54,052 nucleotides of DNA. Origin: Nitrospirota bacterium (GTDB lineage Bacteria > Nitrospirota > Nitrospiria > Nitrospirales > Nitrospiraceae). The stretch spans positions 1 through 54,052 of the forward strand of contig JAHRHE010000015.1 of the NCBI GenBank assembly GCA_020027965.1, given 5' to 3'. Shown here piece by piece: positions 24,006 to 32,447 of the stretch (its first letter is position 1; the number at the start of each line of letters is the position of its first letter). A program made the translations under genes and the position numbers. Below the pieces are notes generated by a model. The model was not told the origin of the DNA and did not search any database. It saw only the letters and a program-made list of their open reading frames with translations.

Positions 24006-24112
24006 AAGGTTGAGGCTAAGGTTAAGGCTAAGGATTTGAGAAGAAAAGAGTGATGGAATCCTCCAAGGAATCTTCAGCTCCGGGCTCAACCTCAGCCTCG
24101 ACCTCAACCTTT
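24006..24112. repeat. hexanucleotide repeat block and its inverted counterpart
   Basis: 24006-24035 contains five tandem variants of RAGGYT (AAGGTT, GAGGCT, AAGGTT, AAGGCT, AAGGAT). 24083-24112 contains five variants of the complementary ARCCTY type inside the start of the next gene. The two blocks can pair into a hairpin spanning the ribosome-binding site and start codons of the M48 gene. Confidence 0.6.
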
Positions 24113-25219
24113 CCCAACGCCCTCTGTTTCGGTAGTGATCTTCCAGCGGCAGGGGTGCCGTGTCAGGTGGAGGTGACGCCGGTTGGGCTGCATCTCCTCC
24201 TTCCCCAGCCCGTTGGCGGAATGAGAACAGACGAGACGGTTCCGTTTGCCGGCATGTCGGTGAAGGCAGGTGGCTTCGATCATGATCAGCTCGTCGTCAC
24301 ATGGCCGCACCAGGGCAACTCCCGCACCTTGTATCTGAAAGACCCCTCGCTCATTGCCTCCTTCCGCCGCTCGGCCCCGCCTGAGCTGATTCCCCATCTG
24401 GAGCGAACCGCAGGGAAGGTTCGCCGGGTGCGACTCGGACGACGCACGCTGCTGGCGATTGCGGTCGGAGCGCCGCTCGCGCTGGTCGTGACGCTCTGGC
24501 TGGGATCAGACACTCTGGTCAACATGGCGGTCAGCCGCATCCCCGTTGAATGGGAGCGGGCGATCGGAGAATCGGCGAGCCGGGAATTCATCGCCGGCCA
24601 GACAGTGGTCAAGGAAGGCGCGGCCGTCGCGGCCGTGCAGGAGATCACGAAGAGGCTGACCGACCAGATTCCGGACAACCCTTATCAGTTTCAGGTCACC
24701 GTGGTGCGGAGCGACACGGTCAACGCCTTTGCGCTGCCCGGCGGGTACGTGGTCGTGTTCACGGGGTTGCTCAAGAAAGCCGAGAGTCCGGATGAAGTGG
24801 CGGGGGTGCTGGGCCATGAGCTCAACCACGTCTTGCTGCGCCACGGGCTCGAGCGGATCGTCAAGACCCTGGGGATCGTGGCCGTCGTGACGATCTTCAC
24901 GGGGAATCAGGAAGGCCTGGTCGGGCTGGCGCAGCGGTTGGGGATTGAGCTGATCACCTTGAAATTCGGGCGTGACCAGGAGAGGGAGGCGGACCTCGGT
25001 GGTCTGCGGCTGGTGCATCGGGCGAAGATCTCGCCGGATGGGATGATCCGCTTTTTCGAGCGGCTCTCCCCAGCGGACAAACAACAAGTGGAGCTGCTGT
25101 CCACGCATCCGATGAGCGCCGCGCGGGCTGAGCGGCTCAAGACGGAAGCCGCCTCGCTGCCCCGCCAAGAACCCGAGCCGTTCACCTTTGCCTGGAAGGG
25201 CGTACAGGCAGCACTGTGA
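24053..25219 (+). CDS. M48 family metallopeptidase with N-terminal beta domain
   Basis: A 388-residue protein. The N-terminal part (about 20-110) is beta-rich and resembles the DUF7092-type domain placed before M48 peptidases. A transmembrane helix (about 130-150, TLLAIAVGAPLALVVTLWLG) precedes the peptidase domain with NAFALPGGYVVVFTGLL, the zinc motif HELNH (His255, His259) and the RDQEREADLGGLRL helix carrying the third ligand. It probably works at the periplasmic face of the inner membrane. The GTG at 24050 directly before the ATG is an alternative start. The first 25 residues (Ser/Thr-rich) are encoded by the inverted hexamer repeat. It overlaps the next gene by 4 bp (GTGA). Confidence 0.9.
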   Translation: MESSKESSAPGSTSASTSTFPNALCFGSDLPAAGVPCQVEVTPVGLHLLLPQPVGGMRTDETVPFAGMSVKAGGFDHDQLVVTWPHQGNSRTLYLKDPSLIASFRRSAPPELIPHLERTAGKVRRVRLGRRTLLAIAVGAPLALVVTLWLGSDTLVNMAVSRIPVEWERAIGESASREFIAGQTVVKEGAAVAAVQEITKRLTDQIPDNPYQFQVTVVRSDTVNAFALPGGYVVVFTGLLKKAESPDEVAGVLGHELNHVLLRHGLERIVKTLGIVAVVTIFTGNQEGLVGLAQRLGIELITLKFGRDQEREADLGGLRLVHRAKISPDGMIRFFERLSPADKQQVELLSTHPMSAARAERLKTEAASLPRQEPEPFTFAWKGVQAAL

Positions 25220-25803
25220 AGGGTCGAACGCTGACCGGTCAACCCGGGAAGGAAAGCCGTCCACTCAGACGTCGGAGGGACCGCGCGTGGCGCATCGGAG
25301 TCATCGCCGACACGCACGGGCTGTTTGACCGGGCGATCCTGCGCCATTTCCAGAGCGTGGGGCACATTCTACACGCCGGCGACATCGGAGACCGATCCGT
25401 AATCACCGAACTGGAAAAGATCGCACCCGTCACGGCGGTCTCCGGGAATGTGGATGGGTACGAGCAGAGCGGAATTCAGCCGGAGGCCCTCATCGAAATC
25501 GGCGGCCGAACGATCGCGATCCGGCACATCGTCTATGAAGGTGGGAAACTGACCAGGGAGGGACGAGCGTTCCTGGATCGGGAACGGCCCGACGTGTGCA
25601 TCTTCGGCCATACGCACCAGCCCAGGACAGAATGGTACGGACGCACGCTGCTCTTCAATCCCGGCTCGGCCGGCCCAAAGCGCTTCAAGTTGCCTCGGGG
25701 CCTGGGCCTCCTCACGATTGAAGGCGGCATCATCACGCCGACCCACATCCGCCTGGACGATCAGGTGGTTGGGCCACCCACAGTGGCCGATATGGGAGGG
25801 TAG
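25216..25803 (+). CDS. YfcE/MJ0936-type metallophosphoesterase
   Basis: A 195-residue calcineurin-like phosphoesterase with all dimetal motifs: IADTHG, HAGDIGD, VSGNVDG, FGHTHQP and LFNPGSAG. It is therefore predicted to hydrolyse phosphodiesters in the cytoplasm. The GTG start overlaps the stop of the M48 gene (GTGA), giving a basic N-terminal extension of about 25 residues before the first strand. A downstream start is possible. It is followed 3 bp later by the PEGA lipoprotein, so translation is probably coupled. Confidence 0.92.
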   Translation: MKGRTLTGQPGKESRPLRRRRDRAWRIGVIADTHGLFDRAILRHFQSVGHILHAGDIGDRSVITELEKIAPVTAVSGNVDGYEQSGIQPEALIEIGGRTIAIRHIVYEGGKLTREGRAFLDRERPDVCIFGHTHQPRTEWYGRTLLFNPGSAGPKRFKLPRGLGLLTIEGGIITPTHIRLDDQVVGPPTVADMGG

Positions 25804-25806
25804 GCT

Positions 25807-26193
25807 ATGAAAGCGATTGCCATTGTTGCAGTGGCTCTACTGTCGACCGCTTGCGCAACTATCATGAATGGCAGCACCCAAGCCGTAACGATTGCCTCTG
25901 AGCCTCCTGGCGCAACGATTTCAGTGTTGGGCAACGAGCTGGCACGGACACCGGCCACGATCACCCTTCGCCGAAACCAACGGCACACGATTCTTCTATG
26001 GAAACAGGGTTATGAAGAGCGGCGCGTCGAAGTGATAGGAGCACCGGAGCATTTTGTAGAGGCAACGCTCGGCAATCTGTGGAATCTGTTTATCGGCTTT
26101 TACGTCGATTTTCTGACAGGCGGAGCCTTTGAATTAGACCCACTGGTTATCAACGCCACCCTGCTAAAACAGGCGGATCGGCCTAGCCCCTAA
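25807..26193 (+). CDS. PEGA domain lipoprotein
   Basis: A 128-residue lipoprotein with lipobox LLSTAC. It is followed by TIMNGSTQAVTIASEPPGAT, which holds the PEGA core (residues about 33-60, with GNELARTPATITLRR), and a C-terminal hydrophobic GNLWNLFIGFYVDFLTGGAF segment. PEGA modules are surface beta domains often found in caspase, kinase or LPP20-type neighbours. Base composition is lower in GC than the surrounding genes. It is the last gene of the 22.8-26.2 kb run and lies upstream of two further lipoproteins. Confidence 0.85.
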   Translation: MKAIAIVAVALLSTACATIMNGSTQAVTIASEPPGATISVLGNELARTPATITLRRNQRHTILLWKQGYEERRVEVIGAPEHFVEATLGNLWNLFIGFYVDFLTGGAFELDPLVINATLLKQADRPSP

Positions 26194-26373
26194 CATCGGC
26201 TCTGCCGGTCAGAAACACTTCAAACATTCATTCCCTTGGCCGACCGGTCTCAGTAACCTGTTGAATTCATTCAATGAGCCCAATGAGCGTTTGAGATCTT
26301 TATGGGTACTTGCCAAGCAAAGAAGATTCCTCTAAGGTAAGCGCCGGCCTGGGCCAGATTTTTGGAGTACAGG

Positions 26374-27657
26374 ATGACCACCCCGATCCTTCGAGCTGGG
26401 ATCCTGATCGCCTTTGGCTGGCTCGTGGCCTGCAGCTCCGTCCCCCAGAGAGAAGTAGGCCAAGCCTCAGACCTTCCGCCGGCGACCGAACCCCAAAAAG
26501 GCCTGATCGCCAAAATTCAGAAGCAATATCCGTCCGACCAGTATCTCCTGGGGATCGGCTTGGGCGAATCCGGCAAGGCCGCGACGGAACTGGCACGCGC
26601 GGATCTTGCCAAGAAGATCCGGGTTGAGGTGCGGATGGTGCAGGTGGACCTGCAGCGAGAACGGGGCGGGAAGACCGAGCAAGAGTTCAGCACCGTCCTG
26701 GAAACCGAGGTTGCGGAACTGATCAAAGGCATCGAGATCGTGGAACAGGGGCGAGACCTCCAGACCGGTGAGGCCTTCGCGGTGGCGGTGTTGCCCAAAT
26801 CGGAGATGCAACGCATCCTGCAGCAGCCGAGGGGCCAGCCCGAGCGTCTCTTTCCTCCGGTCGGTCTTTCTCCGGAAACAAAAGAAGGCATCTGGGTAAC
26901 GGGCGAGGGAGCGGTGCTGTTAGGGGAGGACCTCACCGTGGCGGAAGCCAAAGCGCGCGCCAGGGATGAGGCCAGGCGCCATGCCGTGGAGCAGGCGGTC
27001 GGCACCTTCGTCAAGGGTCTGACCGTGGTGTACAACGCCCAGGTGGCGGAGGATCTGGTCCGTTCTCTCGTGCGGGGGATCGTCGTGGAAGAGCAGGTAC
27101 AAGAGGAAGGCGTCCGGCAAATCGGGCCAGGCGCCGGTACCCCGGCCCTTCAGTATGTCACCAGGCTGCGTGCCAAGGTCAGACCGGTCCGGGTTGAGCA
27201 TAAAGGTGATTTCACCGTCAAGACCTCGCTCAACAAGACGGTCTTTCAAGACGGTGAGGAAATGCGGATCACCGCCACCCCATCGCGCGATGCGCACCTG
27301 TATATCTTCAACGTCACGCAGGATGACGCAGTCACGGTGCTGTTCCCGAACCGGTTCGCCGAGGACAGCTTCGTTCCGGCTCAAAAGGAGTTGGTTTTCC
27401 CTGACGAGGGGCAACGCACGATGGGACTGCGGCTGCGAGTGTTTCCTCCCCAGACAGGGAAGAAGGCGGTGGAGCGGATCAAGTTCATCGCCACCACCAG
27501 GAAGATCGACCTGGGGAGGGGAAAAATGCGCGAGGGAGTATTCCAGGTGTACCCCGGGAAGGACACCGCTCTGGTCACGGATATTCTCAAAGAGCTGTCC
27601 CTGCTCGAGGAATCCGAATGGACCGAGGCGACGATTCCGTATGAAGTGAGAAGGTAG
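26374..27657 (+). CDS. LPP20-like lipoprotein with DUF4384 domain
   Basis: A 427-residue lipoprotein with lipobox LVACSS. The N-terminal half (about 35-255) shows the LPP20 pattern DQYLLGIGLGESGKAATELA, then ADLAKKIRVEV, followed by a second copy-like segment LTVAEAKARARDEARRHAVE. The C-terminal part (about 280-400) is DUF4384-like: VKTSLNKTVFQDGEEMRI, DAHLYIFNVTQDD and VTVLFPNRFAEDSFV. DUF4384 is often fused to, or next to, caspase-like proteins, and the next gene is one. The ATG at 26374 with TTGGAG upstream is preferred over the TTG 12 bp earlier. Role unknown, probably an envelope-located partner of the caspase. Confidence 0.85.
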   Translation: MTTPILRAGILIAFGWLVACSSVPQREVGQASDLPPATEPQKGLIAKIQKQYPSDQYLLGIGLGESGKAATELARADLAKKIRVEVRMVQVDLQRERGGKTEQEFSTVLETEVAELIKGIEIVEQGRDLQTGEAFAVAVLPKSEMQRILQQPRGQPERLFPPVGLSPETKEGIWVTGEGAVLLGEDLTVAEAKARARDEARRHAVEQAVGTFVKGLTVVYNAQVAEDLVRSLVRGIVVEEQVQEEGVRQIGPGAGTPALQYVTRLRAKVRPVRVEHKGDFTVKTSLNKTVFQDGEEMRITATPSRDAHLYIFNVTQDDAVTVLFPNRFAEDSFVPAQKELVFPDEGQRTMGLRLRVFPPQTGKKAVERIKFIATTRKIDLGRGKMREGVFQVYPGKDTALVTDILKELSLLEESEWTEATIPYEVRR

Positions 27658-27692
27658 GGATCTTTAGGAATGCTGTGGAACAGGAGGGGGAA

Positions 27693-28988
27693 ATGAAACA
27701 CCTGGTACAGCCGATCCTACTGGTCTGTGTGCTTTTGTCCTTGACCGGGTGTTCGGTAGTCATGGCCTTGAGCGGAAAAAAGGAACCCAATCTTCAGGCG
27801 ATCCATGTCGGATCGACCAATGCGGATGTGGAGGCCCACCTCGGTCCTCCCGTGGATTCCGCTAGGACCGATTACGGAGCACGTACCGACGTTTATGAGT
27901 ACGAGGTAGGAAACGAGCCCAGCGTTGCACGAGCTTTCGTACACCTGCTCTATGATGTCTTCACAATCGGCTTCTGGGAGCTTATCGGAACACCGGTCGA
28001 GGCAACGCGTGGTGAGAAACGTCGGTTGCCGATCTACTACGGTCCTGACGGCCTGGTCGCCGGCATCAATGAATATGCACCCGAGACGCCCCCCGGGGCC
28101 GTGGCGGAGTCCGGTGGACCGAGATCAAGCCCGCAACCCCTTCGACAGGAAGAGCGGCCAGCTCTCGTCGCCGAGAGCGACGTAGACAGGCTTCCTGCAG
28201 TGACGGCTAGACAGCGCCATGGTGCCCACGCTGTTGTCATCGGCATCGGACAATATCGTGAAAAACTGCCACAGGCGGACTATGCTGACCGCGACGCATT
28301 GTTGATGAGGGAATACTTGACCAGAGCCATGGGATACCAGGAAGAAAATGTCGTGGTGCTGCTCAATGAGCGTGCCGCCAAGGGGGATCTGGAGAAATAC
28401 CTCGAAGGATGGCTCCCGAATCGGGTCGAGAAAGACGACACCGTGTTTGTGTACTATTCAGGACATGGCGCCCCAAATCCGAAGACCGGGGAAGCGTATC
28501 TAGTTCCCTATGATGGTGATCCCACCTTTGTGAATACCACCGGCTATCCGCTCAAGCGCCTTTACGACAATCTGGCAAAGCTGCCTGCTAAGGAAACGGT
28601 GGTAGTGCTCGATTCGTGTTTTTCGGGCGCGGGGGGGCGTTCCGTCATTGGCAAAGGGATGCGACCTGTTGGACTTTCTGTAGAGAATCCGGTTATTGCT
28701 GCCGGGAAAACGGTGGTCGTGGCGGCCAGTGCGGGCGATCAAATTTCCAGCACCTACGACCAGAAGGGACATGGGTTGCTGACCTATTTCTTTCTGAAGG
28801 GACTTCAGGGAGATGGAGATCAGAACAAAGACGGCGCCATCGATCTCTCTGAACTCTATTCCTATCTCAAGCCTCAGGTCGAGCGGGTGGCCCGGCGGGA
28901 ATTCAACAACGAGCAGACCCCTCAGCTTCTCGGGAACCCGGAGCTGCTGAAGAAGGGAATCCGCTTGCTGGAAGTGCCAAAACGATAG
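27693..28988 (+). CDS. caspase-like (peptidase C14) lipoprotein
   Basis: A 431-residue lipoprotein with lipobox LLSLTGC and AGGAGGGGG 3 nt before the ATG. Residues about 30-130 resemble a BamE/SmpA-like segment (HVGSTNADVEAHLGPPV, ELIGTPVEA). The caspase domain (about 185-425) has HAVVIGIGQY, the catalytic His258 in YYSGHGAP and Cys309 in LDSCFSGAGG, so the dyad looks intact. Residues about 374-388 form an EF-hand-like calcium loop (DQNKDGAIDLSE). A secreted, membrane-anchored caspase-like protease would act in the periplasm or on the cell surface. It follows the LPP20/DUF4384 gene by 35 bp and likely shares its transcript. Confidence 0.9.
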   Translation: MKHLVQPILLVCVLLSLTGCSVVMALSGKKEPNLQAIHVGSTNADVEAHLGPPVDSARTDYGARTDVYEYEVGNEPSVARAFVHLLYDVFTIGFWELIGTPVEATRGEKRRLPIYYGPDGLVAGINEYAPETPPGAVAESGGPRSSPQPLRQEERPALVAESDVDRLPAVTARQRHGAHAVVIGIGQYREKLPQADYADRDALLMREYLTRAMGYQEENVVVLLNERAAKGDLEKYLEGWLPNRVEKDDTVFVYYSGHGAPNPKTGEAYLVPYDGDPTFVNTTGYPLKRLYDNLAKLPAKETVVVLDSCFSGAGGRSVIGKGMRPVGLSVENPVIAAGKTVVVAASAGDQISSTYDQKGHGLLTYFFLKGLQGDGDQNKDGAIDLSELYSYLKPQVERVARREFNNEQTPQLLGNPELLKKGIRLLEVPKR

Positions 28989-29170
28989 CTGAGCACAAGA
29001 GAGCTCACGGTGCCATCTCGCTTTGGCGAAACAGGCAGGACTCGTATCCCTGCCACATGACGAACCGGCAGGGAGCCTTCACCGGAGCAGAAGGGAACCA
29101 GCCTTCGACCGACCATTCTTCTATCCTTCCTAGCTTTCTCCTCCACGGTGGATCACCCAGCGGTGGGAGA

Positions 29171-29854
29171 GTGCCCGACCGGCCGAAGTCCCTAAGGGCG
29201 CTGGTACGGCCAGCGCTGTCGGGGCTTCTACGATCGGTTCTCGCGGGCCTGCTTGTCCTGCTCCTGGCTTCGAGAGGGTACGCCCTCGAGCAAGTCGACG
29301 CGGAGCTGAGCCTCTATGTCTTGGGAGCCTTCCCACGCGACAATGATGTGGTCTTGAATGGCGTGAGTCAGGTTGGAACCACTGTGAGTGGAGGCGTGGG
29401 GGCCGGCTTTAAGGCCGGTTTCTATCCGAAGGTCTTGGGCGGATTTGTCGGCCTCGAATACGAGGTGTATGGACACGGTGGTGAGATTACGTTTCCTCTT
29501 GCAACGGGAGGAGGATCCCTCCATCAAGCAAGCACGGATCTGACCGTGATCAATTCCATGGTTAATCTGCTGGTGCGCTATCCTTGGGCGGTGTTCACCT
29601 TCTATGGCGGAGTTGGGGTGGGCCACTCGTCCGGCATCCTCAGCGGAACTGATATTCCCGGCCGGCAGGATCAGGGTCTCGAAACTGCCCCGGCCTTCGG
29701 CTACCAGTTTCTGGGCGGATTGCAGGCCAATGTGAGCGAGCGGGTGTTCGTGTTTGCCGAATACAAGTATTTTTCATCGAACTATCATTGGCAAGAGCTC
29801 TCCCTCGATTATCGAGCCAACTATGTCTTATCGGGTTTAGGAATGCGGTTCTGA
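29171..29854 (+). CDS. outer-membrane beta-barrel protein (porin-like)
   Basis: A protein of about 227 residues. A hydrophobic signal (LLRSVLAGLLVLLLASRGYA) precedes a beta-strand-rich body with alternating hydrophobic residues (GVGAGFKAGFYPKVLGGFVG, WAVFTFYGGVGVGHSSG, RVFVFAEYKYF). It ends in GLGMRF, the C-terminal Phe of outer-membrane barrels. I prefer the GTG at 29171 because it places the signal near the N-terminus; the frame is open from an ATG at 29057, which has no ribosome site. It may be an OmpW/OprF-sized small barrel. It follows the caspase-like gene after 180 bp. The function is unknown. Confidence 0.8.
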   Translation: MPDRPKSLRALVRPALSGLLRSVLAGLLVLLLASRGYALEQVDAELSLYVLGAFPRDNDVVLNGVSQVGTTVSGGVGAGFKAGFYPKVLGGFVGLEYEVYGHGGEITFPLATGGGSLHQASTDLTVINSMVNLLVRYPWAVFTFYGGVGVGHSSGILSGTDIPGRQDQGLETAPAFGYQFLGGLQANVSERVFVFAEYKYFSSNYHWQELSLDYRANYVLSGLGMRF

Positions 29855-30387: not shown

Positions 30388-30417
30388 GAAAGGGCCTGGG
30401 GCATCCCAGGCCCTTTC
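30388..30417 (+). terminator. intrinsic terminator after the TRL-like gene
   Basis: A 13-bp perfect stem (30388-30400 and 30405-30417, GAAAGGGCCTGGG arms) with a GCAT loop, followed by TATTTCT. The A-rich 5' side also allows function in the other direction. Confidence 0.85.
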
Positions 30418-30498: not shown

Positions 30499-31014
30499 AT
30501 GAGAACACACCTGATCGCGATCCAAATCGTAATGCTCATGGTGAGTGTGCAGGCCGACGCCGTGTTGGGCGCCGGAACTACGGATACAGGACCTGGATGC
30601 GGTCTAGGAAAGCTGCTGTGGTCGAGTTCCAAACATCCAAAGAACATTGCACCCCAGGTCATGATGTGGACGACCAATGGGATCGGGATGGCCTCCTTTG
30701 CCATCAGCACCGGGACCTCGGGTTGCACGAACGACGGAATCATCATGGCCCAGTACAAAGTCACCGTGTTCGCCGCCATTAACTTTGACAATCTCTCGCA
30801 AGAGATGGCCCAGGGGCAGGGAGAGCATCTCGCGTCGCTGGCGACCTTGATGGGCGTGCCGGCAGAGCATCAGGCCGAGTTCTTTGCTCTGACGCAGGCA
30901 AAGTACAGCTCGTTGATCCAATCCGGGGAGACCACGCCAGTCGCGATGCTGACTGCGCTGCACGAGGCGATGGCCGCGCATCCAGTTCTTGTCACCCTGT
31001 CGGCGCCCCAGTGA
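30499..31014 (+). CDS. DUF3015 family exported protein, copy 1
   Basis: A 171-residue protein with a signal peptide (to about residue 25, VLGAG) and the DUF3015 pattern. The pattern includes TGPGCGLGKLLW, FAISTGTSGCTNDG, VFAAINFDNLSQEMAQGQGE and AEFFALTQAKYSSLIQSG. GGGAGGG precedes the ATG by 6 nt. The family is periplasmic or outer-membrane-associated with unknown function. The terminator of the upstream gene separates it, so it has either readthrough or an unseen promoter. A central block of 177 bp is 98% identical to the following gene. Confidence 0.85.
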   Translation: MRTHLIAIQIVMLMVSVQADAVLGAGTTDTGPGCGLGKLLWSSSKHPKNIAPQVMMWTTNGIGMASFAISTGTSGCTNDGIIMAQYKVTVFAAINFDNLSQEMAQGQGEHLASLATLMGVPAEHQAEFFALTQAKYSSLIQSGETTPVAMLTALHEAMAAHPVLVTLSAPQ

Positions 31015-31500
31015 CGTTCTGGGGATCCTTCCGGGAAGCAAGCCGCAGCCCGGTTGCATTTTCACGTTCGACCATGTTTTGCGTCCTCGTCCCAGAGTTT
31101 TTTGTAAGCTCAGCAACTGAATTGGTATATAATCCCGCCTGGTTCGATTGTGTTTAGCCCGATGGCAATCACTCAACAGGAGGGGTTCACAATGGTGAAA
31201 AGGCTCGCAATCCTGCAGCTCGCGATCGTCCTCATGTTTTCCCAGACCGGTGTCGCATTGGCGGTCAACCCGGATACTGGCCCAGGCTGTGGTCTTGGAA
31301 AACTGCTGTGGTCGGACTACAAGCATCCAAAGAACATTGCACCCCAGGTCATGATGTGGACGACCAATGGGATCGGGATGGCCTCCTTTGCCATCAGCAC
31401 GGGGACCTCGGGTTGCACGAACGACGGAATCATCATGGCCGAGCACAAAGTCACCGTGTTCGCCGCCATTAACTTTGACAATCTCTCGCAAGAGATGGCC
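30634..31500 (+). repeat. near-identical 177-bp block shared by two DUF3015 genes
   Basis: 30634-30810 and 31324-31500 differ at only three positions, offset by 690 bp. Sequence immediately outside both ends diverges much more. The span listed covers both copies and the DNA between them. Confidence 0.85.
31102..31133 (+). promoter_or_regulatory. putative promoter of DUF3015 copy 2
   Basis: A perfect TATAAT (31128-31133) lies about 59 bp before the ATG at 31192. A TTGTAA (31102-31107) sits 20 bp upstream, which is longer than ideal. Confidence 0.5.
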
Positions 31501-31704
31501 CGGGGGCAGGGGGAGCATCTGGCCTCGCTGGCCACGCTCATGGGGGTGCCGGCGGAGCATCAGGCAGAGTTCTTCGCGCTGACGCAGGAGAAATACATCT
31601 CCTTGATCCAGTCCGGGGAAACCACCCCAGGCGCGATGCTGACTGCGCTGCAGGAGGCGATGGCTACGCATCCAGTCCTCGTAAGACTCAATGTCCATCG
31701 CTGA
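31192..31704 (+). CDS. DUF3015 family exported protein, copy 2
   Basis: A 170-residue paralog of the preceding protein, with its own signal peptide (MVKRLAILQLAIVLMFSQTG, cleavage near ALAVN). It has TGPGCGLGKLLW, HPKNIAPQVMMWTTNGIGMA and AEFFALTQEKYISLIQSGE. The ATG at 31192 with CAGGAGGGG upstream is preferred to earlier ATGs in the same frame that lack a ribosome site and would put charged residues before the signal. The N-terminal and C-terminal thirds diverge from copy 1 more than the central block does. A TATAAT box upstream suggests independent expression. Confidence 0.87.
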   Translation: MVKRLAILQLAIVLMFSQTGVALAVNPDTGPGCGLGKLLWSDYKHPKNIAPQVMMWTTNGIGMASFAISTGTSGCTNDGIIMAEHKVTVFAAINFDNLSQEMARGQGEHLASLATLMGVPAEHQAEFFALTQEKYISLIQSGETTPGAMLTALQEAMATHPVLVRLNVHR

Positions 31705-32017: not shown

Positions 32018-32447
32018 ATGAGAAAAAAGCTGCTTCTCGTATTGGGTCCGATGCTCTTCGTTACTCTGCAGGCCAACAATGCCTTTTCCGTCCACCCGGA
32101 CATAGGTCCAGGGTGCGGACTGGGAAAAATCGCGTGGCAGGATTACAAGCATACTGATATGATTGGCCCGCAACTGCTGATGTGAACAAAAGATGAACGC
32201 GTTTGCCAGCCTCAATTTCGAGAACCTATCTCAGGAGATGGCGCAGGGTGGGGGCGAACACTTGGCCTCACTGGCCACGCTCATAGGGGTGCCGGCGGAG
32301 CATCAGGCCGAGTTCTTTGCCCTGACGCAGGAGAAATACACCTCCTTGATCCAGTCCGGTGAGGCTTCGCCGACTGCGCTGCTCAAAGCGCTGAATGCCG
32401 CGATGGCCGAGCACCCCGTCCTCGCCAAAGCCACGGCTGCGCGCTGA
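32018..32447 (+). pseudogene. DUF3015 copy 3, inactivated by deletion
   Basis: From ATG 32018 the frame encodes a signal peptide (MRKKLLLVLGPMLFVTLQAN), then IGPGCGLGKIAWQDYKH and IGPQLLM before a TGA at the position of the conserved Trp codon (TGG to TGA). The segment equivalent to TNGIGMASFAISTGTSGCTN and what follows, about 35 codons, is missing. The remainder reappears in another frame as FASLNFENLSQEMAQGGGE, later AEFFALTQEKYTSLIQSGE, and ends at 32447. The gene therefore carries both an internal deletion with frameshift and a stop. Confidence 0.85.

Follow-up and report, generated by a model that had tools for sequence, protein, structure and literature searches.

Contig JAHRHE010000015.1 (the window; G000:C34, 54,052 bp in full) belongs to a 3.6 Mb genome whose nearest named relatives are Nitrospira-type metagenome-assembled genomes, and it encodes a caspase that is predicted to be exported and lipid-anchored in the cell envelope. 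The caspase gene is the last of three consecutive plus-strand genes, the others coding for a PEGA-domain protein and for a protein combining LPP20 and DUF4384 domains. As a sequence-only reading of the region had proposed, each of the three open reading frames starts with a signal peptide and lipobox; each also has a Pfam match above the curated cut-off. With moderate confidence, we propose that the caspase is tethered to the outer membrane, cleaves after Arg or Lys in signalling or processing, and acts with a periplasmic DUF4384 partner. The window protein is part of a large exported clade of caspases that has received little description and is represented in nine phyla.

The caspase domain and its predicted export

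The window caspase matches Peptidase_C14 (PF00656) at 2.6e-16 (60.5 bits, gathering score 21.4), and is confidently predicted to adopt a caspase fold. In the AlphaFold2 model, residues from about 161 to 425 mostly have a predicted local distance difference test (pLDDT) value >90, while residues 27–140 and loop 314–327 are modelled at low confidence. Foldseek matches to caspases and metacaspases reach 1e-11 to 1e-12, the best being 3bij (GSU0716; 5e-12), the metacaspases 7qp1 and 4f6o, and MALT1; a sequence profile search also returns metacaspases. The His/Cys dyad, which the sequence-only reading had placed at His258 and Cys309, is apparently intact on checking the sequence, with the two residues at the GHG and DxCxSG positions. 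The structure prediction agrees, the geometry of the dyad being judged through the fold match alone.

Residues H258, C309, D201, D274 and D307 are invariant in all 54 relatives aligned from the wider clade, and the dyad is kept in 46 of 47 Nitrospiraceae homologues. D201 and D307, the latter part of the D-x-C motif, align with the acidic S1-pocket positions of metacaspases. A pocket of this kind would predict cleavage after Arg or Lys. The window caspase is thus probably a catalytically competent protease of the metacaspase/orthocaspase type. Basic residues also recur in loop 314–327, just C-terminal of the catalytic Cys: R316 is Arg or Lys in 52/54 relatives, while R324 is conserved in 49/54 and K321 in 37/54. 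This loop may be the site of intersubunit autocleavage. An SDVD motif is strongly kept where exported caspase domains begin (D163 in 49 and D165 in 48 of 54 relatives); we discounted autocleavage there, as the invariant acidic residues aligned with the S1 pocket would favour Arg/Lys over Asp at P1. The same genome also encodes a 710-aa caspase paralogue (L064:6749-8881, on G000:C35) in which neither catalytic residue is retained (GHG to GRA, DSC to DLT), making it a pseudoenzyme.

All 19 Nitrospiraceae proteins compared, which differ in their N-terminal modules, retain the lipobox Cys. In the wider clade, the corresponding column is Cys in 48/54 proteins, most of the others featuring ordinary signal peptides. 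Exactly one Cys, the catalytic residue, is present in 129 of 135 caspase domains. Homologues from the same phylum that have no hydrophobic N-terminus or signal sequence (L205, L207, L208 and L209) served as a control and contain four Cys over the portion of the domain that was aligned, whereas the complete exported homologues in this comparison contain one. Single-Cys domains are a second, independent sign of envelope location. The mature window caspase has two Cys only, the predicted lipidated one and the catalytic one. The prediction made from sequence alone, that an apparently active caspase is anchored in the envelope, is accordingly supported by the lipobox, the intact dyad and their conservation. 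Because the +2 residue following the lipobox Cys is Ser, the protein probably sits on the periplasmic side of the outer membrane. At loci L070, L071 and L124, three to six caspase genes lie in tandem, and most of them code for lipoproteins.

Probable DUF4384 partners and N-terminal modules

We retrieved 76 caspase loci by caspase similarity alone and counted linkage within the fetched stretches, some of which are short. DUF4384 genes are present in 20/76 loci, against 0.55 expected; all lie on the same strand as the caspase gene, immediately beside it in 17 loci and three genes away in the other 3. The expected value was derived from the DUF4384 density in 21 genomes (38 genes in about 65 Mb); as most of these genomes contain linked loci, the background is if anything generous. 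The excess is about 36-fold and is observed in several phyla. DUF4384 is also by far the commonest Pfam family among 120 operon-like neighbours (17/120), followed by TPR (4), and no other family recurs strongly. The recurrence of DUF4384 beside caspases, to which the sequence-only reading had pointed, is hence non-random across phyla. In Nitrospiraceae, caspase and DUF4384 genes are adjacent or nearly so in nine genomes (G004, G007, G025, G093, G104, G129, G152, G156 and G157), and are fused in G045, G048 and G050.

The window partner matches DUF4384 at 8e-17 (61.5 bits, cut-off 27) and LPP20 at 3.8e-10 (40.5 bits, cut-off 25.9). LPP20 spans residues 48–140 and DUF4384 residues 291–376, with a FlgT_N-like segment at about 166–285 between them. 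Pfam recognizes FlgT_N in 7/20 DUF4384 partners (best 9.1e-07), the window protein not being among them. Its extra LPP20 domain and its lipobox set the window partner and few others apart. A structural search with the model of the window partner, which has a predicted template modelling (pTM) score of 0.46, returned no usable match.

The segment between lipobox and caspase domain varies in the clade. Ankyrin repeats are found in 15/54 proteins, and PEGA, HEAT, CARDB, PDZ, DsbA/thioredoxin, LptE-like and DUF2846 modules occur in others. Clustering of 135 N-termini by sequence left 20 as singletons and placed the others in 15 multi-member groups. On a FastTree tree, parsimony required 36 changes among the multi-member module labels, a number that is approximate as the clusters are crude, and indicates that N-terminal modules have been exchanged repeatedly.

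In Desulfobacterota-type genomes, a signal peptide, a PDZ domain, an S41 protease and a caspase are fused in one protein, as identified by Pfam at L110:5082-7334 and L131:283-2478 and by clustering at L122:5730-7967. Both the Ser and the Lys motifs of S41 are recognizable in the L131 fusion, and the Lys motif in L122. Immediately after the L110 fusion gene come genes for a caspase lipoprotein and for DUF4384. At L140 and L144, the caspase gene is followed by genes for LPP20, a trypsin-like protease, DUF4384 and a further protein, identified at L140 as an SLT transglycosylase.

Organization of the locus

Features of the three genes are listed in Table 1. The PEGA gene product matches Pfam PEGA at 8.7e-08 (32.4 bits, cut-off 20.8). 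The length given for the LPP20+DUF4384 protein counts from ATG, an alternative TTG start being located at 26362. For the caspase, the ATG at 27693 is preferred because it is preceded by a sequence resembling a ribosome-binding site, AGGAGGGGG; a longer form starting at GTG 27675 is less likely.

Table 1 Features of the three lipoprotein genes and of the caspase product in the window.
Feature	Position	Strand	Remarks
PEGA-domain lipoprotein	25807-26193	+	128 aa; lipobox LLSTAC, C16 the sole Cys; Pfam PEGA
LPP20+DUF4384 lipoprotein	26374-27657	+	427 aa; lipobox WLVAC, C20 the sole Cys
Caspase (Peptidase_C14) lipoprotein	27693-28988	+	431 aa; lipobox SLTGC, Cys20
N-terminal module of caspase, about residues 20-140	27750-28112	+	BamE similarity below threshold
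SDVD motif, residues 162-165	28176-28187	+	start of caspase domain
Asp201	28293-28295	+	invariant; aligned to acidic S1-pocket position of metacaspases
His258	28464-28466	+	catalytic; from sequence and conservation
Asp307-Ser308-Cys309	28611-28619	+	putative S1-pocket Asp and catalytic Cys; Cys309 at 28617-28619
Loop 314-327	28632-28673	+	low model confidence, probably flexible; candidate autoprocessing loop
EF-hand-like loop D376-QNKDGAIDLS-E387	28818-28853	+	between two predicted helices; lineage-specific

The PEGA gene starts 3 bp after a YfcE-type phosphodiesterase gene (25216-25803) and is separated from the DUF4384 gene by 180 bp, while 35 bp separate the DUF4384 and caspase genes. A terminator scan found no plus-strand terminator-like site in the gaps between the three genes, and a promoter scan of the intergenic gaps found nothing above chance. 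Given the 35 bp gap and the lack of a terminator-like site within it, the DUF4384 and caspase genes are probably co-transcribed; the PEGA gene may be transcribed with the YfcE gene. A 13-pair hairpin with a T-rich tail is located at 30388-30417, 3' of the TRL gene.

The sequence-only reading had placed the three genes between an M48 protease gene and a barrel gene. Such genes are indeed present at 24050-25219 and 29057-29854, with the YfcE-type gene intervening between M48 and PEGA, but membership of either in the proposed system is not supported. AIM24-M48(-YfcE)...TRL-OMP (outer-membrane protein) is a core neighbourhood of the family, and a sample of 20 further relatives shows it without caspase and DUF4384 genes; the only caspase seen among these, in G171, maps about 7 kb away. 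The core neighbourhood being free of the caspase module in the 20 relatives, the module is, as judged from this comparison, an insertion.

In G008, G121, G150 and G151, the module that forms the N-terminus of the window caspase is encoded separately within the AIM24-M48 neighbourhood, and in three of them it is joined to a CsgG/FlgO-like domain. CsgG/FlgO-like lipoproteins carrying the module are encoded at L076:8239-9255, L077:8112-9140, L075:7340-8299 and L180:13906-14898, all but L075 inside this neighbourhood. Since relatives have the stand-alone module in the same neighbourhood, the N-terminus of the window caspase may derive from a gene already resident there. The module had been described as BamE/SmpA-like. 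A weak match is indeed repeatedly obtained, with 16.1 bits for PF04355 in the window caspase and 14.7–18.6 bits in four other module proteins; all scores fall below the cut-off of 23.2, and membership of the BamE family was dropped.

PEGA had likewise been expected to recur next to caspases. As a separate neighbour it occurs only locally, and it is not among the recurrent families of the 120 operon-like neighbours. Instead, PEGA and caspase domains are combined in one protein in G129, G152, G093, G156, G157 and an Elusimicrobia record.

Downstream, the window holds three tandem copies of a gene for a small secreted protein of the TGPGCGLGKLLW family (30499-31014, 31150-31704 and 32193-32447), the third of which is shorter or starts late.

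Possible roles and relation to known systems

In the mechanism that we propose, the caspase would leave the cytoplasm through Sec, receive a lipid at Cys20 and stay tethered to the periplasmic side of the outer membrane. Its N-terminal module, at a position filled by exchangeable modules in the clade, would sense or dock to an envelope structure. A trigger would then activate the caspase domain, probably aided by cleavage in the flexible basic loop 314–327, and the active enzyme would cut envelope proteins after Arg or Lys. The lipoprotein with LPP20, FlgT_N-like and DUF4384 segments would work specifically with the caspase, whether as an adaptor, a regulator or a substrate, and the PEGA lipoprotein would dock, as PEGA may do when fused to caspases in relatives. 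A role in envelope proteolysis, stress or quality control would fit, because PDZ-S41-caspase fusions and trypsin-like and SLT neighbours occur in the clade. Some observations weigh against this scheme. The +2 sorting rule derives from E. coli, and the low confidence of loop 314–327 may stem from modelling rather than from flexibility. The spacing of the PEGA gene, close to YfcE and distant from DUF4384, makes a separate transcript possible. Moreover, 56/76 loci have no DUF4384 gene in the fetched stretch; the partner is therefore not obligatory, or acts in trans. A broader version, in which the clade represents periplasmic signalling by outer-membrane lipoprotein caspases in several phyla, with swappable sensors, a DUF4384 adaptor and, in some lineages, PDZ-S41-caspase proteins at an upstream step of a proteolytic cascade, would be an extracytoplasmic counterpart of eukaryotic caspase relays; we regard it as less likely than not.

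Other roles can be envisaged. Other families include exported clan CD peptidases that serve in processing, and relatives of LPP20/FlgP and FlgT are outer-membrane components of flagellar motors. The window caspase might similarly mature specific secreted or outer-membrane proteins as a gingipain-like housekeeping enzyme, with the DUF4384/LPP20 protein as scaffold or substrate. This is unlikely: S41, trypsin-like and SLT companions at some loci would suit it, but patchy presence and exchangeable, sensor-like N-termini suit regulation better than constitutive maturation, and no single substrate gene recurs besides the DUF4384 gene. Slightly less plausible is a protease that is silent at the surface and, once released, kills the cell or its neighbours in regulated death, phage defence or competition. 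A generic PADLOC caspase model matches the window protein (1.8e-18), and lineage-specific multiplication (14 PF00656 genes in G169) and module exchange resemble conflict systems. Caspases are also reported to release polymorphic toxins (PMC3482391), and extracellular or fratricidal roles of bacterial caspases have been suggested (PMC3501461). However, no defence or toxin/immunity family recurs among the 120 neighbours, the window caspase has no C-terminal toxin domain, and its partners are envelope modules. Identity with an EACC1-type conflict caspase was rejected, the score against the EACC1-associated NCBIfam model NF047832 (99.2 of 140 bits) missing the cut-off.

Calcium in the envelope could be the trigger, which would add to the outer-membrane protease scheme rather than replace it. 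The calcium-type loop noted in the sequence-only reading fits the canonical 12-residue EF-hand pattern and is helix-loop-helix in the model; the Pfam EF hand scores 13.4 of 25.9 bits, below cut-off. The loop is found in 38/47 Nitrospiraceae homologues under a strict definition and in 42/47 under a relaxed one, but in only 18/54 (strict) or 24/54 (relaxed) proteins of the wider clade, throughout which the active site is invariant. Calcium as a general trigger for the clade was rejected on these counts, and its control of the window caspase, quite unlikely in our view, would be a lineage trait. Least probable of all, the caspase may work alone beside chance neighbours, the DUF4384 and PEGA proteins serving other processes. 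Insertion of the module into a core neighbourhood and the local nature of the PEGA linkage would be expected in that case, but the DUF4384 excess in several phyla and the existence of both kinds of fusion argue otherwise.

The outer-membrane protease that we favour can be compared with systems already described. Metacaspases and orthocaspases (PF00656; e.g., MaOC1 of Microcystis, GSU0716 in 3bij, and yeast Yca1 in 4f6o) have in common with it the predicted caspase fold, the His-Cys dyad and, by alignment, acidic residues at S1-pocket positions, from which Arg/Lys preference would be expected. In contrast, the window clade consists of predicted exported lipoproteins with a single catalytic Cys, exchangeable envelope-type modules and a DUF4384 partner gene, while the orthocaspases in the literature surveyed mainly carry WD40, AAA, NACHT or FGE-sulfatase domains. 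Cyanobacterial orthocaspases have been described with DUF4384 as an accessory domain (PMC8283722, PMC7475262), and 23 caspase-DUF4384 fusions are tabulated (PMC8283722). These combine the same two domains in one protein, whereas in the window the genes are separate and adjacent, both products are predicted to be exported, and LPP20 and FlgT_N-like segments precede DUF4384. Envelope PDZ-S41 (Ctp/Prc) proteases, fused to clade caspases in L110, L122 and L131, follow a periplasmic PDZ-protease logic; they belong to a different catalytic family, and the window caspase has no PDZ or S41 domain.

Exported bacterial caspases were already suspected in 2012. Asplund-Samuelsson et al. (PMC3501461) report a high density of metacaspases in Nitrospirae, propose extracellular roles, and list 46 bacterial metacaspases with an N-terminal helix as a possible signal peptide, which are probably of the same general class as the window caspase. 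The parts of this paper that were searched mention no lipobox, single-Cys signature, DUF4384 linkage or module exchange. We found no description of lipoprotein caspases with a DUF4384 partner gene in the literature searched, which excludes most subscription papers.

Most discussion of caspases in bacteria treats them as proteases of the cytoplasm that serve in death or defence. If the scheme proposed here is true, a widespread lipid-anchored branch outside the cytoplasm would give caspases a role in envelope surveillance, and DUF4384, a domain of unknown function, would gain a testable partner.

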